Positions 1,938 to 60,317 of a stretch of 64,000 bases of DNA are shown one piece after another. Location of the stretch: assembly GCA_029237775.1 (NCBI GenBank), contig JAQZBR010000005.1:248001-312000 (forward strand). The letters are read 5' to 3'. Origin of the DNA: Bacteroidota bacterium (GTDB taxonomy: Bacteria; Bacteroidota; Bacteroidia; 2-12-FULL-35-15). The position numbers and the translations under genes were made by a program. Position 1 is the first letter of the stretch; each line of letters starts with the position of its first letter. The notes beneath the pieces were generated by a model. That model ran no database searches. It saw only the letters and a program-made list of their open reading frames with translations, and was not told the origin of the DNA.

Positions 1938-3182
1938 ATGACCATCAATCACACCGTTACCGAACGCTTCCTTAAATACGTTAAAATAGACACTCAAAGC
2001 GATCCGGAATCACCTACCTGTCCGTCAACCGAAAAACAAAAAGATCTTGCACGCGTGCTTGTTGCAGAAATGCTCGAAATGGGAATTAAGGATGCGCACA
2101 TGGATGAGAACGGATATGTTTATGGAACGATCGAAAGCAACACCTCCAAAAAAGTTCCTGTGATCTGCTTCTGTTCTCACATGGATACTTCTCCTGATTC
2201 ATCCGGAACGAACGTAAATCCGCAGTTACATTCAAAATATGATGGACGTGATATTCAACTCAAGAATGATCCGACTCAAATCATTCGTGTTAGTGAACAT
2301 CCCTCATTACTGAAACAAATCGGAAACGACATTATCACAACAGACGGAACAACGTTGCTGGGCGCGGATAATAAAGCGGGTGTCGCAGAGATCATGGACG
2401 CTGCACATCACCTGATGACAAATCCGTCTATAAAACATGGAACAATAAAAATATTATTTACCCCCGATGAAGAGATCGGACGTGGTGCTGACAAAGCCGA
2501 CCTTAAAAAAGTCGGAGCTGATTTCGGTTATACTGTTGATGGCGAAGAACTCGGACATCTGGAGAACGAAACATTTTCCGCTGACGGAGTGACGATCACC
2601 ATCAATGGTGTAAGCACACATCCCGGTTTTGCAAAAAACAAAATGCAAAGCGCGATAAAAATAGCAAGTGAAATTGTTGCCGCTTTGCCAAAGGATAAAA
2701 TGAGTCCGGAAAGCACCGAGAAGAAAGAACCATTCATTCATCCTGTAAGTATTTCAGGGGGAATTGAAAAAACAGTTCTCCAATTTATCATTCGCGCATT
2801 TGATGAAGAGACATTGAAGATCCAGGAAGATTTTTTAAAAGAGCTTACAAAACAAGTTATTGCATCTTATCCTAAATCCACATTCGATTTTGTTGTTAAA
2901 GAGCAATACAGAAACATGAAGCAGGTGCTTGATAAAAATCCTGAGATCGTGAGTTATGCCTTGGAGGCAATCAAACGTGCAGGAGTTGAACCTGTACTCT
3001 CAAGCATTCGCGGGGGAACTGACGGATCGCGCTTTTCATACATGGGACTACCTTGTCCGAATATTTTTGCCGGAGAACATGCATTCCATTCAAAACTGGA
3101 ATGGGTGTCCGTTCAGGACATGGAAAAAGCTGTTGCTACTATTGTTAACCTTGCAATGATCTGGGAGGAGAATTCTAAATAA
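1938..3182 (+). CDS. pepT: Peptidase T (tripeptide aminopeptidase)
   Basis: PepT is an M20-family zinc exopeptidase that removes the N-terminal residue of tripeptides in the cytoplasm. This 414-residue protein has the usual family length. Visible marks are the SHMDTSPD metal-binding segment near residue 82, TTLLGADNKAGVAEIMD with its bridging Asp, the catalytic TPDEEIGRGAD, VDGEELG, and the C-terminal RGGTDGSRFSYMGLPCPNIF and GEHAFHSKLEWV segments. The spacer upstream (about 1895-1937) has TTTAACCCATTTAACTTATTTAAC-like triplets. Five bases downstream begins the first of two DUF3592 genes, suggesting co-transcription. Confidence 0.95.
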   Translation: MTINHTVTERFLKYVKIDTQSDPESPTCPSTEKQKDLARVLVAEMLEMGIKDAHMDENGYVYGTIESNTSKKVPVICFCSHMDTSPDSSGTNVNPQLHSKYDGRDIQLKNDPTQIIRVSEHPSLLKQIGNDIITTDGTTLLGADNKAGVAEIMDAAHHLMTNPSIKHGTIKILFTPDEEIGRGADKADLKKVGADFGYTVDGEELGHLENETFSADGVTITINGVSTHPGFAKNKMQSAIKIASEIVAALPKDKMSPESTEKKEPFIHPVSISGGIEKTVLQFIIRAFDEETLKIQEDFLKELTKQVIASYPKSTFDFVVKEQYRNMKQVLDKNPEIVSYALEAIKRAGVEPVLSSIRGGTDGSRFSYMGLPCPNIFAGEHAFHSKLEWVSVQDMEKAVATIVNLAMIWEENSK

Positions 3183-5413: not shown

Positions 5414-5599
5414 ATGTCCTCCGATTCTAATCAAGACAATATAAAAAACTCTGATGAAGAGTTGCCGAAAAATTACGAAGTGACTGCACAAGGTTCGCTC
5501 GGACTGCTTGCTTTAGGAGCTGTTGGAATAAAAGCCTGGAGAAAAAAAAGGAAAGAAGAAGAAGAAAAGCAATTGAAAACAAAAAAAGAAAATGAGTAA
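5414..5599 (+). CDS. Micro-ORF coupled to the phosphodiesterase fusion gene
   Basis: This 61-residue protein has an acidic N-terminus, one short hydrophobic segment (GSLGLLALGAVGIKAW, about residues 27-43) and a strongly basic/acidic tail (KKRKEEEEKQLK). The frame is open back to 5324, but the ATG at 5414 follows a TATATTTT promoter-like element at 5391 and gives a compact protein, so it is preferred. Its last 8 bases overlap the start of the large fusion gene, which implies translational coupling. It could be a small membrane anchor or partner for that enzyme; this is inference. I recognise no family. Confidence 0.5.
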   Translation: MSSDSNQDNIKNSDEELPKNYEVTAQGSLGLLALGAVGIKAWRKKRKEEEEKQLKTKKENE

Positions 5600-8129
5600 A
5601 CGACTCGCTAAGAAAGTGCTTGTGATCGGATGGGATGCTGCCGACTGGAAAATTATACATCCTTTGTTAGACGCAGGACTGATGCCTGCACTCGAAGGAT
5701 TGATCAACAAAGGCGCAATGGGAAAAATTGCTACCCTCGATCCTCCTTTGTCGCCAGTATTATGGACATCAATTGCAACAGGAAAGACCGCTGACAAACA
5801 TGGTATTCTTAATTTTGTGGAGCCGGATCCCGCCACTTCTGACTTAAGACCTGTTTCTGTTACATCAAGAAAGGTCAAAGCAATTTGGAATATTCTAACA
5901 CAGGAAGGTTTTAAAACCCATCTTGTTGGCTGGTGGCCAAGCCATCCGGCTGAGCCTATAAATGGTGTATGTGTGTCTAACTCTTTTCAAAAACAATCGA
6001 AAAAGCCTGACGAGCCGTGGACTATGCCCAAAGGCGCTGTTCATCCCAAAGACCTGGAGGAAGTTCTTGCGGAATACAGAATTGAATTAAGTGAGATCAC
6101 AAGCGCGATGCTGCTGCCTTTTGTGCCAGACGCAGCGAAGGTTGACCAGGAAAACGACAAGTCGTTATTTGCAATTGCAAATCATCTCGCTGAAGCGTCC
6201 TCCATTCATGCTGCTTCTACGTGGATCCTGGAAAACAAGGACTGGGATTTTATGGGTGTTTATTTCGACACAATCGATCATTTTTGTCATGGCTTCATGA
6301 AATATCATCCTCCGAAAATGGATGGTATTCCTCAGGAATATTTTGACTTATATAAGGATGTAATAAATAGTGCATACCGTTTCCAGGATATGATGCTGGA
6401 GCGAACATTGAAACTAGCCGGAGATGACGCCACTATAATATTATTATCCGACCACGGATTTCACTCGGATCATCTACGCCCGAAGAAGCTTCCAAAAGAG
6501 CCGATCGCGCCTGCACTTGAACACTCTCCTTATGGGATCATTTGTATGGCGGGACCAAACATACAGGAAGATGAACAGATCTTTGGCGCAACATTACTTG
6601 ACATTACACCAACTATCCTCACACTATTCGGTTTACCCCTTGGCAAAGATATGGACGGCAAACCGCTTCTGCAGGCTTTTAAGGAAGATGTAAAACCTGA
6701 ATACATAGAAAGCTGGGAATCTGTTCCCGGTGAATGCGGAATGCACCCTGCGGATATTCAGGAAGATCCATGGGCTGCACAGGAAGCCATGAATCAACTA
6801 ATTGAGCTTGGTTATGTTGAAGCGCCCGGTGAGAACAAACAAGAGCGGTTACAGAAAACCAGGAACGAAACAGACTTCATCCTCGCGAAAGTTTATGCGG
6901 GATCCAGACGAATGGAACCTGCAATTGAAATACTCGAACGCTTATATAAAGAAAATCCGGATGTCGCACGTTATGGGTTGAAGCTCGCACATTGTTATCA
7001 GGTAACACGTAATATCAAAGGTTTAAGAAAAACAATAGATGAGTTACGCGCAAAAAATCTCAAAGAGCTGCCACATCTTGATTTTCTTGAAGGCACCTTG
7101 CTCCTCTTCGAGAATAAGCCGCGCAAAGCACTACTTATGTTACAGGAAGCGGAGAAAAGCATTTCACACATGCCGAATCTCCATATACAGATCGGTAATG
7201 TTTACAATAAGATCAAGAGATGGGCGGATGCAGAACGTGCTTTCAAAACTGCGTTGGAGATTGACATGAACAATTCAGGAGCTTATCACGGACTGGCGAT
7301 CAGCTATCTCCGTCAGAAGGAATATGAGCTTGCAGCGGATGCTGCGTTCAACGCTATCGGCCTCTCCTATCATTTTCCGGAAGCACATTATCACCTTGGT
7401 GAGATCCTTTATCACATGAAGGAATACAAAAGTTCTTCTGAAGCATTTAATGTGGCCATCACCATGGTTCCCGGATTTAAGAAAGCGCATCAGTGGCTGA
7501 TCAAAATTTATGAGGAGCATCTCAACGAACCGGAAAAAGCTGAGCAATCAAAGAAGTTCATCAAGGATCAGATCAAAGGAAGTATAACAATTGTTTCCGG
7601 ACTCCCGCGTTCAGGAACTTCTATGATGATGCAAATGCTAAAAGCCGGAGGTATGCCGATCCTTACCGATGATCTCAGAGCCAACGATGACAACAATCCT
7701 AAAGGATATCTCGAATACGATGATGTAAAAAAACTCGCTAAAGATAAGTCCTGGCTTGTGAATGCAGAGGGGAAAGCGGTAAAGATCATTGCACAATTGC
7801 TTCAGCATTTACCGGACACCTATACTTATAAGATCATTTTTATGCAGCGGGACATGATCGAGATCCTTCAATCGCAGCAAAAGATGCTTGGAAAAAACAC
7901 TTCTGTTTTTCCGATGGGATTAGCGGATACATTCGCAAAGCAGCTTTCTAAAACGGAAAGCTGGCTTAACGGACAGCCGAATATGGAAGTGCTTTATGTT
8001 AATTATAAGGATGTCATTATGAACCCGGAAGAGCAGGCGGAAAATGTTAATGCCTTTCTAAGTGGCGATCTTGATATTCAAAAAATGAGTGAGGCTACCG
8101 ACAAAAAGCTATACCGGAACAAAAATTAG
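5592..8129 (+). CDS. Three-domain protein: phosphodiesterase/phosphatase, TPR, sulfotransferase
   Basis: This 845-residue protein fuses three modules. Residues 1-380 are an alkaline-phosphatase-superfamily phosphodiesterase/nucleotide pyrophosphatase-like domain with the metal-binding GWDAADW (Asp15), the nucleophile segment SPVLWTSIATGK (probable Thr59), DTIDHFCHGF near 226 and SDHGFHSDH near 286. Residues about 425-655 are TPR repeats (for example RWADAERAFKTALEIDMNN). Residues about 660-845 begin SITIVSGLPRSGTSMMMQML, the PAPS-binding 5' loop of sulfotransferases, followed by IIFMQRDMIEILQSQQKML. No signal peptide is seen, so it is probably cytoplasmic. It follows the 61-residue ORF with overlap. 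Substrates are unknown; the domain pairing suggests handling of a sulfated or phosphorylated molecule. Confidence 0.85.
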   Translation: MSKRLAKKVLVIGWDAADWKIIHPLLDAGLMPALEGLINKGAMGKIATLDPPLSPVLWTSIATGKTADKHGILNFVEPDPATSDLRPVSVTSRKVKAIWNILTQEGFKTHLVGWWPSHPAEPINGVCVSNSFQKQSKKPDEPWTMPKGAVHPKDLEEVLAEYRIELSEITSAMLLPFVPDAAKVDQENDKSLFAIANHLAEASSIHAASTWILENKDWDFMGVYFDTIDHFCHGFMKYHPPKMDGIPQEYFDLYKDVINSAYRFQDMMLERTLKLAGDDATIILLSDHGFHSDHLRPKKLPKEPIAPALEHSPYGIICMAGPNIQEDEQIFGATLLDITPTILTLFGLPLGKDMDGKPLLQAFKEDVKPEYIESWESVPGECGMHPADIQEDPWAAQEAMNQLIELGYVEAPGENKQERLQKTRNETDFILAKVYAGSRRMEPAIEILERLYKENPDVARYGLKLAHCYQVTRNIKGLRKTIDELRAKNLKELPHLDFLEGTLLLFENKPRKALLMLQEAEKSISHMPNLHIQIGNVYNKIKRWADAERAFKTALEIDMNNSGAYHGLAISYLRQKEYELAADAAFNAIGLSYHFPEAHYHLGEILYHMKEYKSSSEAFNVAITMVPGFKKAHQWLIKIYEEHLNEPEKAEQSKKFIKDQIKGSITIVSGLPRSGTSMMMQMLKAGGMPILTDDLRANDDNNPKGYLEYDDVKKLAKDKSWLVNAEGKAVKIIAQLLQHLPDTYTYKIIFMQRDMIEILQSQQKMLGKNTSVFPMGLADTFAKQLSKTESWLNGQPNMEVLYVNYKDVIMNPEEQAENVNAFLSGDLDIQKMSEATDKKLYRNKN

Positions 8130-8148: not shown

Positions 8149-8156
8149 TATATTTG
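8149..8156 (+). promoter_or_regulatory. Bacteroidota -7 promoter element (TATATTTG)
   Basis: TATATTTG matches the Bacteroidota TAnnTTTG -7 consensus exactly and lies 16 bases before the ATG of the first T9SS cargo gene. The TTG -33 box is not clear. Confidence 0.55.
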
Positions 8157-8172
8157 AATTAAATTCATACAC

Positions 8173-8997
8173 ATGAACGAAACTACTTCGCGGAACCTTC
8201 ATAATAAATTAAAATCATATTCTGCTCTTGCAGGAACGCTTTTCGTTGCCCATCAGGCAAGCTCACAAATCGTTTACACTGATATTATACCGGATTCGAC
8301 AGTAAACACTGATGGAGCCATGTATGATCTTGACCTTAATAATGATGGAACTTTTGATTTTACCTTCAAACAAACCATCACTACTTACATGAGTTACCCG
8401 GTACAAAAAGTCTCGGTTAATGCTCTTAACCTAAATGAGGTTGCGGGATCCGTTGCTGGTGCATATATCTATCCTACCGCAATGAATGCCGGTGACACGA
8501 TTCAATCATCCCTTGTTTGGAATGTAGGAACAAGTCAATCAATGGCAAGCTATTTCGGTGCATCGTACTCTTATGGCCAATGGCTTGGAGCTACTGACAA
8601 ATATATCCCTCTGAAAATAAATGTTGCGGGAACTATATATTATGGCTGGGCACGTTTAGATGTCGCCACTCTTGCAAACAGCTTTACAATTAAAGATTAT
8701 GCATACATGAATTCTCCTGGGCAGCCAATACTTGCGGGAGCAACAATGTCGGTCGGAATTGCCAAAGCTGAATCAAAAGGCATTACGGTTTACAACAACA
8801 ACAGAGAAATTCATATAAATACACAAACTTCACAGGGCATTGTTACAATAACTAATGCTCTCGGGCAAGCAGTGCTTTCTCAGCAGATCAACTCGGAGCA
8901 AAATATCGTTTCTCTCGAGACAGAAAAAGCAGGTGTATATTTCGTAAATGTTAAATCACAACAGATCAGTTATACAAAAAAAATAGTTATTAATTAA
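8173..8997 (+). CDS. T9SS type A sorted secreted protein (paralogue 1)
   Basis: This 274-residue exported protein starts with a weak N-terminal signal region ending near SSQIVYTDI. A body domain carries the Asp/Asn-rich loop DLDLNNDGTFDFTF (possible Ca2+ loop) and YYGWARLDVA. The C-terminus (about 195-274) is a T9SS type A sorting domain: VYNNNREIHIN, VTITNALGQ and ending GVYFVNVKSQQISYTKKIVI. T9SS carries such cargo across the outer membrane and trims the domain. A paralogue follows 9 bases downstream, so the two are probably one transcription unit. The function of the body domain is unknown. Confidence 0.8.
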   Translation: MNETTSRNLHNKLKSYSALAGTLFVAHQASSQIVYTDIIPDSTVNTDGAMYDLDLNNDGTFDFTFKQTITTYMSYPVQKVSVNALNLNEVAGSVAGAYIYPTAMNAGDTIQSSLVWNVGTSQSMASYFGASYSYGQWLGATDKYIPLKINVAGTIYYGWARLDVATLANSFTIKDYAYMNSPGQPILAGATMSVGIAKAESKGITVYNNNREIHINTQTSQGIVTITNALGQAVLSQQINSEQNIVSLETEKAGVYFVNVKSQQISYTKKIVIN

Positions 8998-9006
8998 TCA
9001 AGAAAT

Positions 9007-9864
9007 ATGAAAACGAATAAAACCAACATTCAGAAAAAGCTAAAAACATACTCTGCGCTTGCAGGTACTTTTGCAGCCGCTATGAACAGTGCAGATGCAC
9101 AGGTTATGTACACCAATGTTGCTCCTGACGACACATTGAATGCAGGAGAAATGTTCAATCTTGATTTGAACAATGATGCTATTGCAGATTTTAAATTATT
9201 ACAGAAATCAGGAGTGTATGCAAGTTACTTCAGCTATGATGCAGTGGCAGTGTATGCACTGAATGCTCCTAACGCTATTGATACCGCAGGTGGAAATGGA
9301 ACAGCTGCTGCATTTGATGCTGGTGTAAGGATCGATCAGACTTTAAACTGGGTTGACTCAATGGAAGCGGCCCTGCAAACTCCTGCTGTTTCCAATGGTC
9401 TTGCTTTGTATTTACCGGCTTTCGGACAGGGCATCGGTAACTTTGTTGGTGTAACAGGCAAATTCCTTCCGTTACGTTTTGATGTTGGAACTGCAAGATA
9501 TTATGGATGGGTAAGACTTGATGTTGCTGCTGATGCAAGATCCTTCACTGTTATTGATTATGCTTATACCAATTATCTGAATGCATTCTCTATTACAGGT
9601 GACATGGTAGGAATCTCTGAATCTGCTTTGAATAATAAAGTAAATATCTATTCTTATGACAAGGCAATCACTGTTGAGCTGGATGCAGCAGTAAGTCCGG
9701 AAGGAACCATCATAATATCCGATATAAGCGGAAAAAAGATCTCTGAAACATCGATCAGTGCTACGAAGATGAATATTCCTGTGAATGAGGCTAAAACAGG
9801 GGTTTATCTGGTTACCATTAACCAAACAAATGGCTCTTACACAAAACGCGTTTTTGTAAAATAA
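9007..9864 (+). CDS. T9SS type A sorted secreted protein (paralogue 2)
   Basis: This 285-residue protein parallels the upstream gene segment by segment: KKLKTYSALAGT at the N-terminus, NLDLNNDAIADFKL, YYGWVRLDVAADARSFTVIDYAYTN-type motif and a C-terminal T9SS type A domain (KVNIYSYDKAITVEL, IISDISGKKI, GVYLVTINQTNGSYTKRVF). Both are about the same length, and they sit 9 bases apart, so tandem duplication is the simplest origin. It is presumably surface-exposed or secreted. Transcription ends at the strong hairpin at 9883. Confidence 0.8.
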   Translation: MKTNKTNIQKKLKTYSALAGTFAAAMNSADAQVMYTNVAPDDTLNAGEMFNLDLNNDAIADFKLLQKSGVYASYFSYDAVAVYALNAPNAIDTAGGNGTAAAFDAGVRIDQTLNWVDSMEAALQTPAVSNGLALYLPAFGQGIGNFVGVTGKFLPLRFDVGTARYYGWVRLDVAADARSFTVIDYAYTNYLNAFSITGDMVGISESALNNKVNIYSYDKAITVELDAAVSPEGTIIISDISGKKISETSISATKMNIPVNEAKTGVYLVTINQTNGSYTKRVFVK

Positions 9865-9943: not shown

Positions 9944-10879
9944 ATGAACGAGTTCAGAGAAGCCTTATTAATAGCCATCACCACCCCAATTTATGCAATC
10001 GTAATTGGTGCGGAGATCATTTTCAGCTATCTGCATGAAAAGCACTACTATTCTGTAAAAGGAACTCTTGCGAATGTTTATCTGACCATTCTGAATTTCA
10101 GCCTTGACATACTAGTGCGCGGTGTTTGTCTTTTTGTACTCAATTATTTCTTTCAGTTCAAATTTACCGAGATCAGCAATCCGATACTATACTGGACCTT
10201 GCTTGTGATCGCTCAGGATTTTATGTTTTACTGGCTTCACCGTGTGGATCATTATTGCCGCTTGTTCTGGGCAGTACATGTAACGCATCATTCCTCCGAA
10301 GAATTTAACCTCACCGTAGGATTTCGTTCGTCCGTGTTTCAGCCTTTGTACAGATTCATTTATTTTATACCTCTGGCGATGCTGGGATTTAAAGGTATTG
10401 ATATCATGTTTATTTATGCCGCTACTCAGATCTACGGAATTCTTATCCATACGAAAACGGTAGGCAAGCTGGGCTTTCTTGAATGGTTCATGTCAACCCC
10501 TTCTCATCACCGTGTTCATCACGCGTCAAATGTGCTATACCTGGATAAAAACATGGGTATGCTTCTGATCATATGGGACAGGATGTTCGGCACCTTCCAG
10601 GAAGAAGAGGAAACAGTACCCGTTGTTTACGGCCTTACCGAAAATATCAAGACCAACAATCCCTTGAAGATGGTTTTTCATGAATTTATAGCCATTGTGG
10701 GAGATCTGAAAAAACCGGCATCTATAAAAGCTAAGTTAATGTATGTGTTTGGGCCTCCGGGATGGAGCCATGACGGGAGCAAAAAGACAGCAGCAGAATT
10801 AAGAAAAGAGTTGGAGAACAGTGCTCTGAAATCTGATCCGGAAACTCAGAGCTGTAAGGCGGAACTTGGAACTAAATAA
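9944..10879 (+). CDS. Sterol desaturase / fatty acid hydroxylase family membrane protein
   Basis: This 311-residue integral membrane di-iron enzyme family member has about four hydrophobic segments (near 5-30, 40-65, 85-105, 145-165). The three histidine clusters expected of the family are visible: HRVDH (about 98-102), HVTHHS (about 111-115) and HHRVHH (about 187-192). Members hydroxylate or desaturate lipids using O2. The substrate here may be a fatty acid, sphingolipid or other membrane lipid; the sequence alone does not say. It has its own promoter element and is followed by pbpC after about 50 bases. Confidence 0.88.
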   Translation: MNEFREALLIAITTPIYAIVIGAEIIFSYLHEKHYYSVKGTLANVYLTILNFSLDILVRGVCLFVLNYFFQFKFTEISNPILYWTLLVIAQDFMFYWLHRVDHYCRLFWAVHVTHHSSEEFNLTVGFRSSVFQPLYRFIYFIPLAMLGFKGIDIMFIYAATQIYGILIHTKTVGKLGFLEWFMSTPSHHRVHHASNVLYLDKNMGMLLIIWDRMFGTFQEEEETVPVVYGLTENIKTNNPLKMVFHEFIAIVGDLKKPASIKAKLMYVFGPPGWSHDGSKKTAAELRKELENSALKSDPETQSCKAELGTK

Positions 10880-51896: not shown

Positions 51897-54800
51897 TTAT
51901 CTGATCAATTCGAAAGATCCTTTTTCGAAATATTCTTTTCCGTCAATTCCTTTCGCACTGATGATGAAGAAATACGTTCCATCCGGAACCAGCACGCCTG
52001 CTGCTGTACGGCCATCCCAACCTCCGTTGGTCGTGTGCCATTCATATTCTTTCTGCCCCCATCTGTTATATATCTCTGCATCCATTTTTTCCAGACCTAC
52101 ATTTTTAACGGTAAATATATCATTGATATCATCACCATTTGGTGTAAATACATTTGGAATAACAAAAGTAGAATTGATAAATATATCAATGTCGACACAA
52201 GTACTATCCGAACAACCCGCACCATTGTTGGCAACCAGACAAACTCTCTGATTTCCGATCTGCGTGCATGTAAAAAATGCATTTGTTGTTGTATCCGTGC
52301 TTCCATCAGGGAACTGCCATAAATATGTTGCTCCGCCTACAGATGTATTAACAAAACTTACAGGCAACGGTGTTTCTCCTGTAATCTGATCTGCCGTGAA
52401 TGATGCAGTAACACCGCTTGTTGAACTAACTGTGGACCCTGAACCACCACCAATCTGTGCCGAACAGCCGTTTGCATCAGTAACCGTAAGCGTGTAAACA
52501 CCTGGGCCTACGTTACTAAGATCAAGTGCAGTTCCAACAGTTGTACCAGCAGCATCCTGCCACACATAAGTAAACGGACTCTGCCCTGAAACGACTGCAA
52601 CATTTGATATTGAGCCTGTGGTTGCACCGCAGGTAGCATCTGTCAATACCATATTCGTAGAATCTAACACAGGAAGCGGGTTGAATGTAATAGTAACAGC
52701 TGACGAAAAACTGGTACATGAACCAATGATCTCAGTTACATAAATTGTTGTATCTCCCGTGATTCCTACCGGTGTAAAAGGAAGTCCTGTCCCTATTGAA
52801 TCTGTAAGAGCAGCATCAGAGTACCAGTTTACAACACCTCCGGAAGATGTATATGTAATAGCGCCTACGGTTGCACCCACACAATACGGTGCAGGGCTGG
52901 TAACCGATGGTGCCTGAGGCAACGGAGTGATCGTAAGGATCATGCTGTCGACAACTGCATTACACACTCCTGAGGGCTCATCAGTTGTGAAATACAACGT
53001 TACTGATCCATTTGCATTATCTGCAGCTGAAGGTGTATATGTCGTATTCGGTAGTGTATTGTCGTTGAATGACCCCGTGCCGTTGCTTGTCCAGCTTCCT
53101 GACAATGCGCTCCCCCCTACACTGGCACCAACCACCGTGTAAGCTGTTCCGGAACAAACCGAAGTATCATTACCGGCATTTGCAATAGCAGGTTGATTTA
53201 TTGTAATGATAAGTGAATCAGAAGCGGATGCGCATCCGCCTGCCGCTACAATATTGTTATACAATGTATATGTACCGGGCGCTGAATTCGAAAGATCTAT
53301 TTGACCCGGAGTACTTGTAAAAGTTAAGCCTGCAGGCGATGCCGTAAAGACTCCGCCACTAGCACCAGTATTGAATACCGGAGCAGGATTCGAATCTGTC
53401 TGGCAGAAAGATGTAGCTGCAGAAGAATATGTGAAAGTCGCCACCGGTGCATCAGTAATAGTTACGGACACTGTATCAGTAGTAGGACATGGCCCATTCG
53501 TAGTATAAACAACATCGTAAGTGCCGACTGTACTTCCTGCAAGATTAATCTCTCCTGTGGAAGTGCTTACAAATACAAGACCTGGTGATGAGCTGAACAC
53601 CCCTCCCGCTGTTCCCGTAACTGTTGGTAGAGGATTCGTCCCTGATTGGCAGAAAGTTCCCCCTGAATAGCTAAACGAAGCGTCATCAAGAGGTGTAATT
53701 GTTAGAACTACGAAATCAGTAACCGCACCGCACACACCGGAAGGATCATTAGTGGTAGCAGTTAATACTACCTGTCCTGCAGCAATATCCGCTGCTGAAG
53801 GCGTATACACCGCAGCCGCTAAAGTAGTATCGTTGAACGTTCCTGTTCCACTTGTAGTCCAAGCAATGCTTATTGCACTTCCACCGATCACTCCGGCCAG
53901 AGTTGCATTTTGAGCTTCACATATTGTATCATTAACGCCTGCATCAATAGTTGCTGCCTGATTAATAATAATAGTACCTGATGCAGAAGCTGCAGCACAG
54001 CCACCACCCGCGGCAATCGAATTCGTTAAGGTATACGTTCCGGGCGCTGAAAGGCTTAGATCTATTTCGCCCGTTGCCGGATCCACAAAGACAAGGCCTG
54101 CAGGAGTCGAACTGAATGTTCCTGCACTTGCCCCCGCTCCGAAATTCGGAATTGGGTTAGGATCTGTTGAACACACTGACGCTGCATAAGTAAAGTTGGC
54201 ATCCGGTGCAGTTGTGATCGTAATGTTCACTACAGATGAATTCGGACAAGCACCAGAAGTCTGATATGTAATTGTGTAGTTTCCAAGCGGGCTCGCGCTA
54301 AGATCTATCACTCCGGTTGCAGAATTGATTACAAGCGTTGATGGAGAGGCAGTAAACACTCCTCCGGAAACCCCTGTAATTGAAGGGCTGGGATCAACTC
54401 CTGTCTGGCAGAATGTGCTAGATGGATAAGTGAAAGCTGAATTATCAATTGGATTAACAGTTACTGTTACATCCGTTGGAGGTCCCGCACAACCATTGTC
54501 TGTCGGAATGATCGAATAAACCACGGTACCTGCTGAAGTACCTGTTAAATTCAGGAGATGTGTAATTGAATTACCTGTGCCATTGGTTGCACCACTAACT
54601 CCTGTTTGAGTAACTGTCCAGTCAAAAGTGGTTGCAGATAAACTGCTTGTCAGATTTATTGAACTTGCTGAACCAGTACACAAAATTTGCGATGAAGGTG
54701 TTGCAATTGCGGTTGGCAGTGGGTTAACAGTTATGGTTACAAATACCGGTGAAGCAGATGCACAACCGCTTGCAGATGGTGTAATTGTATATACCGCAGT

Positions 54801-57800
54801 TCCGGGAGATGTACCCGTAGCGGATAATGTTTGAGTGATCACAGAGCCGCTTCCGGCTGATGCACCGGATACTCCGGTTTGTGTGACCGTCCACGAGAAT
54901 GTTGTTCCGCTTACATTACTTGTTAACACACAATTTGTAGCTGTACCTGAACAAATTGTTGCACTGGCAGGTGTGGCACTCACGTTCGGAGCTGGATTCA
55001 CAGTTATTACAATTGGAGGTATAGTGGATGTACAACCTGCAGATGTTGTTGCCGTGACATTATAAGTTACAGTCCCCGCAGTGGCACCGGTTGAATTCAG
55101 AACCTGAGAAATAGAGCTTCCGGAGCCCGCTGATTCACCGGTAGTGCCGGAAGATATAACAGTCCATGAAAAAGTGGTTCCCGGGATATTGCTGGTAAGA
55201 GCGACAGAAGTAGATGTGCCAGAACAAATAGTTGCTGAAGCCGGGGTTGCTGTTGCATTTGGATTCGGCTCCACTGTAATTGCTACTGATACCGCAGTTC
55301 CCGGACATGAGTTAGCGGTTGGGGTTATGTTATAAGTAACAGTACCGGCCGAAGTACCTGTCGCGTTAAGATTCTGTGTGATTGAACTGCCGCTTCCTGA
55401 CGCTCCGCCTGAAGCACCACTTTGTGATGGTGCTGACCAGCTGAAGGTAGCGCCTGACACATTGCTTGATAAACTTATTGCTGTTGAACCGCCTGAACAG
55501 ATAGTCTGCGCAGGAGGAGTTGCAACCACAGATGGAACGGGATTTACAGTTACCGTTACATTAACAGGGCTGCCCGGGCATCCGCTTGCAGAAGGTGTAA
55601 CTGAATATGTTGCTGTACCACCTGAAGTTCCGGTATTATTTAAGATCTGATTTATTGAGGTACCTGATCCGGCTGAAGCTCCGGTAATTCCTGCACCGTT
55701 AGATGCAGTCCAGGAGAATGTTGTACCGGCTGTAAAGCTGCTGATATTGATCGCGGTGCTTGCTCCTGAACAAATAGTTGAATTGGCGGGTGTGGCAGTT
55801 GCAAAAGGAACAGGGTTAACAGTTATTATTACCGGAACAGAGGGACCGGAACATCCATTAGCTGTAGGAACAATATTGTATGTTACTGTTCCTGCAGAAG
55901 CACCTGAAGTTAGTAATGTCTGCCCGATTGAAGTTCCGCTGCCGGCACTTCCACCTGTCGCACCCGACTGTGATGGAGCAACCCATGCAAATGTAGTACC
56001 TGGAATAGTACCGGTAAGCGTAATTGCAGTTGTAGATCCGGAACAAATCGTCTGAGCCACCGGACTGGCATTTACATTTGGGGTTGGACTAACATCTATG
56101 GTGACCGTTATCGGTGAACCCGCACAACCCGAAGCCGTTGGTGTTATCGTATAAATAGCTGATGCAGATGCAGTAGAACTATTATTCAATGTTTGGTTAA
56201 TTGCGGTACCTGACCCCGAGGAAGCCCCTGAAATTCCGGTTCCGTTGGCTGCAATCCAGTTAAAGGTTGTTCCTGCCACAGGACTTGATAATGTTACTGC
56301 AGTGGTCGCACCTGAACAAATTGAAGAAACAGCTGGAGTTGCCGTAGCAACAGGTGTAGGGTTAACTGTGATGATTACCGGCACTGATGCGCCAGGACAA
56401 GAATTTGCTGTCGGAACAATGTTATAAGTTACCGTGCCTGCCGAAGAACCGCTCGCAGTCAATGTCTGAACTATACTGGAACCTGATCCTGCCGTTCCTC
56501 CGGTAGCTCCCGTTTGGGTAGGGGCAACCCAGGCAAAGGTAGTTCCGGGTAAGCTTCCTGATAAAGAAATACTGGTAGTGTTACCGGAACAGATCGTCTG
56601 AGCTACCGGGCTTGGTGTTACAGTAGGAACAGGATTAACAGTTACCGGAATTGTCAAGGTATTTCCGGCACAACCACCTGCAGTGGATGTAACCGTATAA
56701 GTTGCAGTACCTGAAACTCCTGCTGTGGTATTTAATGTCTGAGCGATGTTACTTCCGGATCCGGCACCGGCACCCGATACTCCGGATTGAGTAACTGTCC
56801 AGTTATAAGAAGTTCCTGCAATTGAACTCGATAAAGCAATTGAAGTTGCCGTGCCGGAGCAAATAGTTTGAGAAGCTGGTGTTGCAGCTACTACAGGTGA
56901 TGGGGTGATTGTCACTGTTGCCGTAGCTGTTGCAGCTGCGCATCCACCGCTGGCAGTTATTGAATTTGTTACAGTGTATGTACCGGCTGTACTTGCAGAT
57001 AAATTGATCTGTCCAGTATTTGCATTAACAAATACCAATCCGGCAGTTGAGGTAAATGTACCTGCACTTCCGGAACCTATGAATGTTGGTGATGGATTAG
57101 CAGCCGACTTACAATAAGGGCCCGCATAACTGAAAGCTGCAGAAGGGGCACTGGTGATAGTAACTGACAATGTGAAGTTATTCGGACATGCACCGTTCGT
57201 TGTATAAGTGACATTATACGTGCCTAATGTGCTGGCTGCCAAATTAATCGCACCTGTTGATGTATTAAGTGAAAGTCCGCCAGGAGATGAACTGAAAGGA
57301 TTAGCTCCTCCAGCCTGTCCTGTAACCGTAGCCGTAGGATTAGTTCCTGTCTGGCAAAAGGTTGTTGAGCCACCATAATTAAAACCAGCGTTATCCATCG
57401 GGTTTACTGTTATCAATCTGCTTGCAGTACCACTGCATCCGGAAAGAGTATAGGTTACAGTGTAAGTTGTGGATGATGCAGGAGAAACCGTGATGGCAGA
57501 AGTTGTAGCTCCTCCGGGTGACCATGAGTAAGTACCTCCGCCCAGAGATGGTGTAGCCGTTAAAGTGGCGGATGATCCTGCACAAATTGTTGACGTTGCA
57601 GGGCTGATAGTTACAGTTGGTGTCGGATTAACGGTAACGACACTGGTCCCTGTCCCTGAGCAACCTGCTAAAGTATAAGTAACTGTATAAGTAGTGGAAG
57701 ATGCAGGAGAAACAGTGATCGATTGAGTGGTTGCTCCACCCGGAGCCCATGAATATGTTCCACCTCCTGTAGAAGGTGTTGCCGTTAAACTTGCTGAACT

Positions 57801-60317
57801 TCCGGAGCAGATCGCTGCCGGTGTATTAACTGTAACTGTAGGCACTGGATTTACTGTTATCAAACGCGATGCAGTCCCTACACAGCCAGATAAAGTATAT
57901 GTAACTGTATATGTTGTTGAAGATGCTGGCGAAACCGTAATTGCTGCAGTTGTTGCACCTCCGGGAGACCAGGAATAGGTTCCGCCACCGGTGGATGGTG
58001 TAGCTGTAAGCGTTGCAGGAGACCCTGCACAAACCGTAGAGGTTGCAGGACTTATTGTTACAGTTGGTATTGGATTGACTGTAATAGTTCCCGTTGCGGT
58101 TCCTGAACAACCGGACAGTGTATACGTAACGGTATAGGTCGTTGTTGAAGCAGGTGCCAATGTGATGGAAGCTGTTGTCGCACCGCCCGGTGACCATGAA
58201 TACGTACCTCCTGCCGTTGATGGAGTGGCAGTCAAAGTTGCCGATGTACCATTACAAACAGGAGCCGAATTTGCAACGCTGACAGTTGGTACAGGATTTA
58301 CAGTTATTAAACGGGTTGCAGTTGCAGAGCAACCCGACAAGGTATAAGTCACTGTATAAGTGGTAGTGCTGCCAGGTGACACAGTGATGGATGCCGTACT
58401 AGCGCCTCCAGGTGACCATGAATAATTACCACCGCCAGTTGAAGGTGTAGCTGTTAAGGTTACTGAAGTCCCGGCACAAACAGGTGCAGGGGAGTTGATA
58501 CTTACAGTAGGAACCGGATTAACAGTAATTGTGCTGGTTCCTGTACCCGAGCAACCTGCCAGAGTATAGGTTACAGTGTATGTGGTTGTTGATGCAGGAG
58601 AAACACTTATAGATTGAGTCGTTGCACCACCCGGAGCCCAGGAGTATGTTCCACCACCTGTCGAAGGTGTTGCAGTAAGGGTCGCAGATGCGCCATTACA
58701 AATTGGAGCCGGTGTATTAACACTAACTGTTGGAACCGGATTAATTGTGATCGTGCGGCTTGCTGTTCCTGAACATCCTGCTAATGTATATGTCACCGTA
58801 TACGTAGTGCTTGTTCCCGGTGAAACGGTAATTGAAGATGTGGTTGCACCTCCCGGAGCCCATGAGTATGAACCGCCACCAGCAGATGGTGTTGCTGTAA
58901 GCGTCACGGAAGTTCCTGCACAAACAGGTGCGGGAGAATTAATTGAAACTGTCGGAACAGGATTCACAGTAATACTATGTGTTACGGCTGCACTACATCC
59001 GCCAGATCCCACGGTGTATGTTACCGGAATGCTTCCCGATAAACCTGAAGGATTGAATGTACTCCCTGAAACACCCGATCCGCTCCAGGTTCCACCTGTT
59101 GTTCCTGTTATATATGAATTTAAATTTATAGAGGCTGCACTGGCGCACATTGCTGCAGGAGTTGTCCAGGCGGCATTATTAGGATTTGTTACCGTTATCG
59201 ACTGGCAATAATTATATGTTGCACAGGTTCCCGGAGGATCAAATGAATAACAGATATTATAAGTTCCTGCACCTGCTGCAGCTGCAGCCGCAGGGCTGAA
59301 TGTTGTATATCCCCAGTCAGTTGAAGTTAAGCAACCCGGACATGCAGGACTGATCGACCAAGAAGAAACACCACTGATAGTGCCCGGAGGAATATTTATA
59401 TTAAGACAAGCACCATCTGTAACCCACGTTCCGGAACTAAGAACAGCTCCGTTGGTCACATCGGTGATCGTATACGCGAAGTCACCACTGGCAGTGCTTG
59501 TTTCACAGAGCTGTATCTGGTTGGTTGCAGATGGAGACATTGTAGAATATTGAATATCATTATTTGTACTTGCTGGGATATTCAGGGACGTACCTCCGCA
59601 ACCGGAGCACAAGACAAAAGCTCCATTCTCATACCAATTGATCCTTAATCCGTTATTGGCGGTGGAAGTAAATGAGATCATTATCCCGGGGGTAATCGGA
59701 TTCCCGAAGGGGGCATTACCCGAGGCTATCAGTCCGAAGCTGGCTGCATTACAGGCAATTGAGGCCGGCATATTGCCACCTGCAGCAAGAAGGAAACCGT
59801 TTCCTGCTACAACAGATGGGCAGGTAATGGAACAATCCGCAGCAGGTCCTGCAGTCTGATCAAAAGTAATTGTACCCGCTTGTCCACTGTAATTAGTAAT
59901 TAACACCATAAAATATTGTCCGGCTGCAGTTGCAGTTAGATTCATATATTCAACTGCAGCTGTGCTGTAACTGCAATCAGTACTTGAAGAAGAACCTAAA
60001 CTGCTACAAATATTAGCACTGGCAAATGGCCCCCATGCGATAAAGTCAACGTCAATGCCCGCACCACCGTTTGTTTGCTGACTTATGGTAAAATCCATTG
60101 TGCCCGCAGCGGTTGACTTAATAAGGAACCAGGCGGGGTTTGGCTGAGTGGTTAAACAACCGTAATTAGGACCTGATTGTGACGTGGTTGCAGTGTTATT
60201 CGGGAACGTTACATCCCCACAAAAAGGGGTTGCACTGGCACAATTACTTCCCTGGCTGAAAACCGAACCTGTTGACAAAACTAGTATTGCAGCAAAAAAG
60301 AATAAGATTCTTTTCAT
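51897..60317 (-). CDS. Giant repetitive surface protein with T9SS type B (gliding-associated) C-terminal domain
   Basis: This 2806-residue exported protein has a signal peptide (KRILFFFAAILVLSTGSVFS) and an N-terminal domain opening NCASATPFCGDVTFPN. Then come seven ~74-residue Ig/PKD-like repeats (for example the block LTATPSTGGGTYSWSPGGAT), nine ~91-residue repeats (for example TICSG.(S/T)(T/S).I.LSS then GTTFSWTAS-type), further mixed domains with DPSGVCGAV, and a C-terminal type B sorting domain (IPNVFTPNGDDINDIFTVKN, IYNRWGQKEYEW, VLVPDGTYFFIIS). Cysteines at matching places in each repeat suggest stabilising bonds. It is predicted to be a surface adhesin or gliding-related filament; function is inferred. 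A small secreted protein gene sits 42 bases upstream. Confidence 0.9.
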   Translation of the reverse strand: MKRILFFFAAILVLSTGSVFSQGSNCASATPFCGDVTFPNNTATTSQSGPNYGCLTTQPNPAWFLIKSTAAGTMDFTISQQTNGGAGIDVDFIAWGPFASANICSSLGSSSSTDCSYSTAAVEYMNLTATAAGQYFMVLITNYSGQAGTITFDQTAGPAADCSITCPSVVAGNGFLLAAGGNMPASIACNAASFGLIASGNAPFGNPITPGIMISFTSTANNGLRINWYENGAFVLCSGCGGTSLNIPASTNNDIQYSTMSPSATNQIQLCETSTASGDFAYTITDVTNGAVLSSGTWVTDGACLNINIPPGTISGVSSWSISPACPGCLTSTDWGYTTFSPAAAAAAGAGTYNICYSFDPPGTCATYNYCQSITVTNPNNAAWTTPAAMCASAASINLNSYITGTTGGTWSGSGVSGSTFNPSGLSGSIPVTYTVGSGGCSAAVTHSITVNPVPTVSINSPAPVCAGTSVTLTATPSAGGGSYSWAPGGATTSSITVSPGTSTTYTVTYTLAGCSGTASRTITINPVPTVSVNTPAPICNGASATLTATPSTGGGTYSWAPGGATTQSISVSPASTTTYTVTYTLAGCSGTGTSTITVNPVPTVSINSPAPVCAGTSVTLTATPSTGGGNYSWSPGGASTASITVSPGSTTTYTVTYTLSGCSATATRLITVNPVPTVSVANSAPVCNGTSATLTATPSTAGGTYSWSPGGATTASITLAPASTTTYTVTYTLSGCSGTATGTITVNPIPTVTISPATSTVCAGSPATLTATPSTGGGTYSWSPGGATTAAITVSPASSTTYTVTYTLSGCVGTASRLITVNPVPTVTVNTPAAICSGSSASLTATPSTGGGTYSWAPGGATTQSITVSPASSTTYTVTYTLAGCSGTGTSVVTVNPTPTVTISPATSTICAGSSATLTATPSLGGGTYSWSPGGATTSAITVSPASSTTYTVTYTLSGCSGTASRLITVNPMDNAGFNYGGSTTFCQTGTNPTATVTGQAGGANPFSSSPGGLSLNTSTGAINLAASTLGTYNVTYTTNGACPNNFTLSVTITSAPSAAFSYAGPYCKSAANPSPTFIGSGSAGTFTSTAGLVFVNANTGQINLSASTAGTYTVTNSITASGGCAAATATATVTITPSPVVAATPASQTICSGTATSIALSSSIAGTSYNWTVTQSGVSGAGAGSGSNIAQTLNTTAGVSGTATYTVTSTAGGCAGNTLTIPVTVNPVPTVTPSPVAQTICSGNTTSISLSGSLPGTTFAWVAPTQTGATGGTAGSGSSIVQTLTASGSSAGTVTYNIVPTANSCPGASVPVIITVNPTPVATATPAVSSICSGATTAVTLSSPVAGTTFNWIAANGTGISGASSGSGTAINQTLNNSSTASASAIYTITPTASGCAGSPITVTIDVSPTPNVNASPVAQTICSGSTTAITLTGTIPGTTFAWVAPSQSGATGGSAGSGTSIGQTLLTSGASAGTVTYNIVPTANGCSGPSVPVIITVNPVPFATATPANSTICSGASTAINISSFTAGTTFSWTASNGAGITGASAGSGTSINQILNNTGTSGGTATYSVTPSASGCPGSPVNVTVTVNPVPSVVATPPAQTICSGGSTAISLSSNVSGATFSWSAPSQSGASGGASGSGSSITQNLNATGTSAGTVTYNITPTANSCPGTAVSVAITVEPNPNATATPASATICSGTSTSVALTSNIPGTTFSWTVISSGTTGESAGSGSSISQVLNSTGATAGTVTYNVTATTSAGCTSTIPPIVITVNPAPNVSATPASATICSGTATNCVLTSNVSGTTFSWTVTQTGVSGASAGSGSVITQTLSATGTSPGTAVYTITPSASGCASASPVFVTITVNPLPTAIATPSSQILCTGSASSINLTSSLSATTFDWTVTQTGVSGATNGTGNSITHLLNLTGTSAGTVVYSIIPTDNGCAGPPTDVTVTVNPIDNSAFTYPSSTFCQTGVDPSPSITGVSGGVFTASPSTLVINSATGVIDLSASPLGNYTITYQTSGACPNSSVVNITITTAPDANFTYAASVCSTDPNPIPNFGAGASAGTFSSTPAGLVFVDPATGEIDLSLSAPGTYTLTNSIAAGGGCAAASASGTIIINQAATIDAGVNDTICEAQNATLAGVIGGSAISIAWTTSGTGTFNDTTLAAAVYTPSAADIAAGQVVLTATTNDPSGVCGAVTDFVVLTITPLDDASFSYSGGTFCQSGTNPLPTVTGTAGGVFSSSPGLVFVSTSTGEINLAGSTVGTYDVVYTTNGPCPTTDTVSVTITDAPVATFTYSSAATSFCQTDSNPAPVFNTGASGGVFTASPAGLTFTSTPGQIDLSNSAPGTYTLYNNIVAAGGCASASDSLIITINQPAIANAGNDTSVCSGTAYTVVGASVGGSALSGSWTSNGTGSFNDNTLPNTTYTPSAADNANGSVTLYFTTDEPSGVCNAVVDSMILTITPLPQAPSVTSPAPYCVGATVGAITYTSSGGVVNWYSDAALTDSIGTGLPFTPVGITGDTTIYVTEIIGSCTSFSSAVTITFNPLPVLDSTNMVLTDATCGATTGSISNVAVVSGQSPFTYVWQDAAGTTVGTALDLSNVGPGVYTLTVTDANGCSAQIGGGSGSTVSSTSGVTASFTADQITGETPLPVSFVNTSVGGATYLWQFPDGSTDTTTNAFFTCTQIGNQRVCLVANNGAGCSDSTCVDIDIFINSTFVIPNVFTPNGDDINDIFTVKNVGLEKMDAEIYNRWGQKEYEWHTTNGGWDGRTAAGVLVPDGTYFFIISAKGIDGKEYFEKGSFELIR
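54438..56900 (-). repeat. Nine in-frame ~273-bp repeats in the giant gene
   Basis: Each unit of about 91 codons starts at TP..QTICSG and ends at ..ITVNP. Units are similar but not identical. Units 2 and 4 share the phrase TFAWVAP.Q.GATGG, and units 3 and 5 share PFATATPA..ICSG-type openings, pointing to a two-unit block copied once. Confidence 0.75.
57400..58955 (-). repeat. Seven in-frame 222-bp repeats in the giant gene
   Basis: Seven consecutive 74-codon units, each with PTV.I or PTVSV start, C(A/N/S)G, LTATPS.GGG.YSW.PGGAT, and TTYTVTYTL.GC(S/V)(G/A)T. Spacing is constant at 222 bases. Cys at units' residues about 12 and 61 recurs. Confidence 0.8.

Follow-up and report, generated by a model that had tools for sequence, protein, structure and literature searches.

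A micro-ORF coupled to a phosphodiesterase-TPR-sulfotransferase fusion in Bacteroidota, and a possible export-linked modification system with a secreted partner family

The stretch of DNA analysed here (hereafter the window) comprises 64,000 nt of a Bacteroidota bacterium (assembly GCA_029237775.1, contig JAQZBR010000005.1, positions 248,001 to 312,000 of the forward strand). On its plus strand lies a gene for an 845 aa protein (5592..8129) in which an alkaline-phosphatase-superfamily phosphodiesterase is joined to a sulfotransferase through tetratricopeptide repeats (TPRs), with co-linear relatives in several phyla. A 61-codon open reading frame (ORF), the micro-ORF, overlaps its start, and two genes for secreted proteins follow it. 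By sequence comparison the partnership between the enzyme gene and this secreted family is well supported. The helix encoded by the micro-ORF recurs as the tail of the secreted partner in other phyla. It is proposed, with chances that fall marginally on the doubtful side of even, that the fusion acts in the cytoplasm as the enzyme of a small modification system linked to export, in which a precursor would be modified before Sec export and the helix would dock on or activate the enzyme.

The enzyme and its secreted partners

Relatives were drawn from a scan of named genomes, of which the best 80 of 175 confirmed loci were kept, hence the set leans to close relatives; together with the window these make up the 81 loci compared (loci and genomes are cited below by L and G numbers). 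By record title many are Bacteroidota, and Proteobacteria, Acidobacteria, Nitrospirae, Planctomycetota and others also occur. Named cultured strains, for example of Winogradskyella and Psychroserpens, are among them. A family search of the window returned 36 genomes, all of one genus, and the enzyme is present in 12 of these. In a sample of 395 genomes from across the phylum its first domain was found in 2 (E≤1e-25), the window's own genome counted.

In 69 of the 81 loci the secreted partner family has members (93 ORFs) no more than 3.6 kb from the enzyme gene, and both genes just downstream in the window belong to it; the profile used here represents the first 192 residues of the family and was built from an alignment that already contained many of these sequences. 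Of the 12 loci lacking a partner several have short flanks, but the flanks of five (L030, L036, L041, L044 and L046) extend for about 6 kb in both directions. The arrangement varies: in many Bacteroidota the partner gene follows the enzyme gene on the same strand, in many Flavobacteriaceae it lies next to it in the opposite orientation, and in other phyla it often precedes the enzyme gene. Among the same-genus genomes, partner matches that include the signal peptide (E<1e-70) occur in 12 of 12 with the fusion versus 1 of 24 without it. The sole match of the latter kind is on a contig of 3,188 bases and runs up to base 3179, the point at which an enzyme gene would be expected to start.

In the window, partner 1 (274 aa, 8173..8997, plus strand) consists of an LxxYS signal peptide, a beta-rich domain and a type IX secretion tail, and partner 2 (285 aa, 9007..9864, plus strand) is its paralogue. 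Por_Secre_tail scores 38.6 and 32.2 bits in the two proteins (cut-off 23), which marks both as type IX cargo. The tyrosine of the signal peptide, in the pattern LxxY[SG]A, is present in all 50 aligned partners having a letter at that position, and the beta domain of the family is conserved as well. The pattern itself is found in 64 of 88 partner ORFs versus 12 of 506 other ORFs, and in 4 of the 165 other ORFs with a crude signal-peptide-like start. Tail models at E≤0.001 among 51 aligned partners were type IX in 42, PEP-CTERM in 4 and IPTL-CTERM in 1. The predicted partner structure is mostly beta, with a mean predicted local distance difference test score (pLDDT) of 86.7. Structure searches matched mostly its type IX tail (residues ~198–274); the N-terminal beta domain is barely covered by them and no new fold is claimed for it.

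The enzyme had been described in a first-pass annotation of the window as a three-module fusion with complete motifs at both catalytic ends, and Pfam profiles confirm the modules in that order. Phosphodiest (PF01663) covers residues 9–291 (85.6 bits, cut-off 23), several TPR models exceed their cut-offs, and the C-terminal module matches Sulfotransfer_3 (41.7 bits, cut-off 27) and, over residues 666–832, Sulfotransfer_1 (23.0 bits, cut-off 22). In window coordinates, all on the plus strand, these modules correspond to an NPP-type N-terminal domain of the alkaline phosphatase superfamily (5616..6650, end approximate), a TPR scaffold (6852..7547, limits approximate) and a sulfotransferase domain (7581..8126) of the type that uses 3′-phosphoadenosine-5′-phosphosulfate (PAPS), with the P-loop GLPRSGTS at residues 670–677. 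The candidate catalytic positions of both modules proved invariant in an alignment representing 64 of the 81 loci, the window included, from which near-copies and incomplete or split proteins were omitted; the roles given to these residues follow those in the families, and their conservation was measured in the alignment. Candidate phosphodiesterase residues D15, S54, D229, H233, D287, H288 and H311 are each identical in 64 of 64 proteins; from NPP motif positions, S54 is presumably the nucleophile and the others are taken to be metal ligands. Likewise, G670, P672, R673, G675, T676, S677, R753 and S761 are each identical in 64 of 64, and in the P-loop GxPRSGT all of G, P, R, G and T are invariant, with Ser674 in 60 and Thr in 4. 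R753 and S761, eight residues apart, are assumed to be the Arg and Ser of the 3′-phosphate site of PAPS-dependent sulfotransferases.

On sequence grounds the N-terminal domain is an NPP-type phosphodiesterase that keeps its candidate catalytic residues. NPP enzymes are its best structural neighbours (ENPP3, 6c01, Z 27.5, 286 residues aligned, 2.7 Å; a Xanthomonas NPP, 7n1s, Z 26.4, 271 aligned, 2.5 Å), and choline sulfatase was matched at Z 24.6. With this family the domain shares fold neighbours, candidate nucleophile and metal ligands; unlike NPP enzymes, the fusion has no evident signal peptide and is joined to TPR and sulfotransferase modules. The matched NPP structures are mostly of secreted or surface enzymes. 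The formylglycine motif of type I sulfatases, [CS]xPxR, is absent from the window protein and from those of L049 and L051, and matches within the first 170 residues of 1 of the 64 aligned proteins. The sulfotransferase is a separate gene instead of a fusion in L045, L052, L053 and L093, and a separate sulfotransferase ORF is also present in L085, L091, L096 and L098; locus L078 ends at a contig end. The first-pass suggestion that the fusion could make and unmake one modification is accordingly unsupported, and its form with a single sulfate ester is rejected, the domain being of NPP type without a sulfatase motif and the sulfotransferase being separable (and not seen in the 0.8 kb after the enzyme gene of L083). 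Searched alone against solved structures (E up to 10), the sulfotransferase module gave one match, unrelated, at E 0.6. No second copy of the fusion was found in its own genome, where other matches to the protein are confined to the TPR part; a stronger Sulfotransfer_1 match lies elsewhere (G000:C4:316633-317433).

The micro-ORF and the tails of the partners

The micro-ORF (5414..5599, plus strand; ATG at 5414, stop at 5597–5599) encodes a 61 aa protein with a PEP-CTERM-like helix and no evident signal peptide, whose N-terminus, as read from the sequences, is polar. Its overlap with the fusion gene is 8 bases (5592–5599), as first annotated, and this is also the commonest overlap among 59 clear copies (19 of 59). 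When all six frames of the 81 loci were searched with its profile and fused forms were added, it was found as a separate gene in 63, as an in-frame fusion to the enzyme in 2 (L049 and L051) and in neither form in the remaining 16; weak or distant among the 63 are L086 (E 0.06) and L048 (511 bases away). Among the same-genus genomes 11 of the 12 that encode the fusion have it, against 0 of the 24 others. The twelfth, G004, has no micro-ORF match, and its enzyme is split over two contig pieces. Neither a lack of micro-ORF conservation nor a loss of active-site residues in homologues, the two outcomes that the first-pass annotation had named as telling against it, was encountered.

Conservation is centred on a helix core at residues 27–47 (GSLGLLALGAVGIKAWRKKRK; 5492..5554, plus strand) with the consensus GSLGLLALGxxGLxAWRKKR. 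Among 44 aligned copies A33 and G35 are invariant, and G27, L29, G30, L31, L32, G38, W42 and R43 occur in at least 90 %. In 8 close relatives the ratio of nonsynonymous to synonymous change (pN/pS) is 0.16 for core codons and 0.51 for the whole ORF, with synonymous sites near saturation; by this measure, purifying selection acts on the core codons, and together with its distribution in the same-genus genomes this marks the ORF as no mere chance reading frame. The single hydrophobic stretch of the first-pass annotation stands only in part: a stretch is present at residues 29–39, but 26 of 44 copies are charged within it, a number that rises to 37 of 44, the window copy among them, when residue 40 is included. 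An alignment that combined enzymes with micro-proteins misplaced the latter and was dropped.

An orphan micro-ORF in genome G278 (L104, 1459–1692) has no enzyme among the ORFs of its 3.1 kb locus and none in its genome at E≤1e-25. The genome of L045 has a second micro-ORF (L135; G444, contig C37), about 2 kb from a second partner-family match.

The helix motif LGLLAxGxxGLxxWR occurs in three places: in the micro-ORF, at the N-terminus of the enzyme, and at the C-terminus of the partner, there within a PEP-CTERM or a PEP-less tail. The partner of Bacteroidota is mostly type IX-tailed and the helix has a gene of its own, whereas outside this phylum several genomes with an exosortase encode a secreted protein that itself ends in a micro-ORF-like tail; partner-family proteins of other phyla also carry PEP-CTERM tails above cut-off. 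Both the secreted family and this likeness had been missed by the first-pass annotation. The micro-ORF profile was searched at E≤0.1 in 15 genomes, 11 from micro-ORF-less loci and 4 from loci with a micro-ORF. It matched 14 of the 15 at 41 places, 5 of them micro-ORFs. Of the other 36 places 25 are given as loci, and 19 of these 25 belong to the partner family, 6 of them being sequences that the family alignment already contained. The 6 places outside the family all score below 19.4 bits, yet some partner-family members score lower still. The acidobacterial genome of L053 (G431) matches at 13 places; the four given as loci are partner-family proteins, and one more is the short frame L172 described below. 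In the acidobacterial partners L128, L138, L145 and L150 the motif is kept without PEP, and each has a charge in the part of the helix that precedes the Trp. Because the motif is kept where the exosortase signal looks degraded, a second reader of the helix may exist.

PEP-CTERM proteins have an N-terminal signal sequence and end in PEP, a transmembrane helix and a basic tail (PMC12188702). The micro-protein shares the helix and basic end, and its most frequent weak matches at E≤0.1 are to such models, namely NCBIfam PFE-CTERM (15 of 44 copies), XDP1 (10 of 44) and Pfam PEP-CTERM (10 of 44), followed by FAM165 (7 of 44); TIGR02595 matches 3 of 44. Unlike such proteins, it has no secreted domain, evident signal peptide or PEP (found in 0 of 44 aligned copies), its helix is often charged, it is coupled to a cytoplasmic-looking enzyme, and none of the 47 tested loci that carry it has a full-length exosortase.

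Exosortase distribution, the proposed system and its rivals

A full-length EpsH-type exosortase (E<1e-20) was found for 12 of the 16 tested loci without a micro-ORF versus 0 of the 47 with one, separate or fused; the comparison omits 18 of the 81 loci, L076 among them, and L030 and L049 share one genome. In the proposed system, an exosortase-using partner would carry the helix itself, and for a type IX partner the helix would be supplied in trans; the docking or activating helix would thus have moved between substrate, free peptide and enzyme. The TPRs may keep the precursor in place during its modification, or that of an attached molecule, by the sulfotransferase, the phosphodiesterase may perform a coupled phosphoester step, and the modification would take place before Sec export. 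That the helix docks is moderately likely; for sulfation of the secreted partner, a reasoned conjecture, the chance is put at about one in three. A more specific form, in which the helix is a portable ligand (in cis, in trans or built in) and the enzyme recognises the signal-peptide tyrosine, possibly sulfating it, and so licenses or tags the precursor before export, is rather unlikely.

Several observations weigh against the proposed system. On a tree of the 81 phosphodiesterase domains there are 5 changes of micro-ORF state and 2 to 4 independent pairs, and with so few independent contrasts ancestry alone could explain the exosortase split. Genomes with a micro-ORF are, moreover, not wholly free of exosortases: L046 has a nearly full-length match at 1.4e-16 and L054 one at 3.4e-12, and short exosortase-like matches (E≤0.01) are found in all 12 same-genus genomes with the fusion and in 11 of the 24 without it. 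The window's own genome encodes a 179 aa exosortase-like protein (L102, 1447–1986, minus strand) beside an ORF with a type IX-like end; it scores 24.1 bits, or 26.5 with neighbours in frame, against a cut-off of 25.7, and its Cys, Arg and His are in the order expected for exosortases. As to the partner, L030, L036, L041 and L046 lack it within about 6 kb in either direction, the genome of L044 (Thiotrichaceae) has enzyme and micro-ORF and no partner at E≤1e-10, and weaker partner-like matches without a signal peptide are present in some fusion-less genomes (e.g. G020 at 9.9e-26). No sulfotransferase was seen beside the L083 enzyme, where the 0.8 kb after the alkaline phosphatase-TPR gene contain no ORF of at least 80 aa. 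A short motif frame without a partner domain occurs in the exosortase-bearing L053 genome (L172, 622–795), with no enzyme motif in the 6 kb read around it; it is perhaps what is left of a gene, perhaps a micro-ORF alongside an exosortase. For the fused L051 protein the predicted structure is good overall (mean pLDDT 88.0, predicted template modelling score 0.79), but it places the helix without confidence (mean pLDDT 62 for residues 11–20 and 56 for residues 21–30), and no docking site could be read from it, with two alignment rows over the helix. Additionally, most of the loci outside Bacteroidota are metagenome bins.

The likeness to PEP-CTERM tails could instead be convergence of short hydrophobic helices, the micro-protein being an unrelated subunit. 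Such tails are short and of low complexity, and the window micro-ORF falls below the curated cut-offs for both PEP-CTERM (16.1 versus 20.7) and PFE-CTERM (18.5 versus 24). Weak matches of the micro-ORF profile also include some unrelated PEP-CTERM tails and one unrelated membrane protein. However, in G438 the profile matches only two places, both partner tails beside the enzyme (genome-wide E 5.5e-10 and 1.4e-9), and its single match in G439 is again the partner beside the enzyme. The profile is also specific, matching 3 of 395 phylum genomes at E≤1e-4, the own genome counted. Convergence is thus considered unlikely.

Alternatively, the micro-protein could act as a membrane anchor, recruiting the otherwise cytoplasmic enzyme to the inner membrane close to the Sec exit. 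Its sequence resembles a transmembrane sorting tail with a basic end, the fused order of helix, basic residues and enzyme would leave the enzyme cytoplasmic, and 18 of 44 copies are uncharged in residues 29–39. Against this, particular residues are conserved beyond the needs of a mere anchor, and because the other 26 copies are charged inside the short ‘hydrophobic’ stretch the micro-ORF is not a clear membrane anchor. This role is judged quite unlikely.

The RaxX-RaxST system of tyrosine sulfation in Xanthomonas suggests a third role, that of a small peptide substrate sulfated by the fusion. RaxST is a bacterial sulfotransferase that uses PAPS, works with a small protein and is linked to export (PMC4216712), features that the present locus shares, and the micro-ORF, which adjoins a sulfotransferase gene, is close in size to the 60-residue RaxX precursor (PMC6637879). 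Unlike RaxX, the micro-protein is not a plausible substrate: Tyr is present in the core of 12 of 44 copies and not in that of the window, 8 of 44 have another residue in place of the Ser of GSLG, and in L049 and L051 the micro-protein is fused to the enzyme. Nor did a transporter, such as a RaxA/B-type exporter, stand out beside the enzyme in neighbour clusters of at least 4 loci; the only peptidase in those clusters is a PepT-like gene, named from Pfam matches of the window copy, at varying distance in 8 Bacteroidota loci. The enzyme additionally differs from RaxST in its phosphodiesterase and TPR modules. A sulfated micro-protein is very unlikely and is rejected for its lack of a conserved acceptor and its fused forms.

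A role of the short ORF chiefly in translational coupling to the large gene, which would suit the 46 of 59 copies overlapping the fusion gene start by 1–23 bases (1 more abuts), is scarcely credible and is rejected, given selection on the core amino acids, the 12 copies that stop 1–511 bases short of the gene, the two fusions and the recurrence of the motif as a protein tail.

Neighbouring features and significance

A promoter-like TAnnTTTG box lies 24 bases before the first secreted gene (8149..8156, plus strand). The search for such Bacteroidota-type boxes was a weak one: of 81 secreted genes 20 have a box in the 80 bases upstream, and the comparison figure of 2.3 % comes from random stretches of the fusion gene, which represent AT-rich intergenic DNA poorly. 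After the secreted pair follows a gene of the fatty-acid-hydroxylase family (9944–10879), whose cluster occurs in 10 loci including the window. A 2806 aa ORF lies on the minus strand at 51897–60317.

No profile model for the whole gene set was found, the libraries searched covering its separate modules, and among open-licence PubMed Central texts no paper was recognised as describing it. To our knowledge PEP-CTERM-like tails are understood only as exosortase signals. The occurrence of the helix as a free gene, as an enzyme fusion or as a PEP-less tail suggests a second, intracellular reader of such tails. The gene set hints at an undescribed marking of proteins before export, and the named cultured strains among the loci make the proposed system testable. 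If it is correct, bacterial sulfotransferases of this type would gain a dedicated role in protein export.

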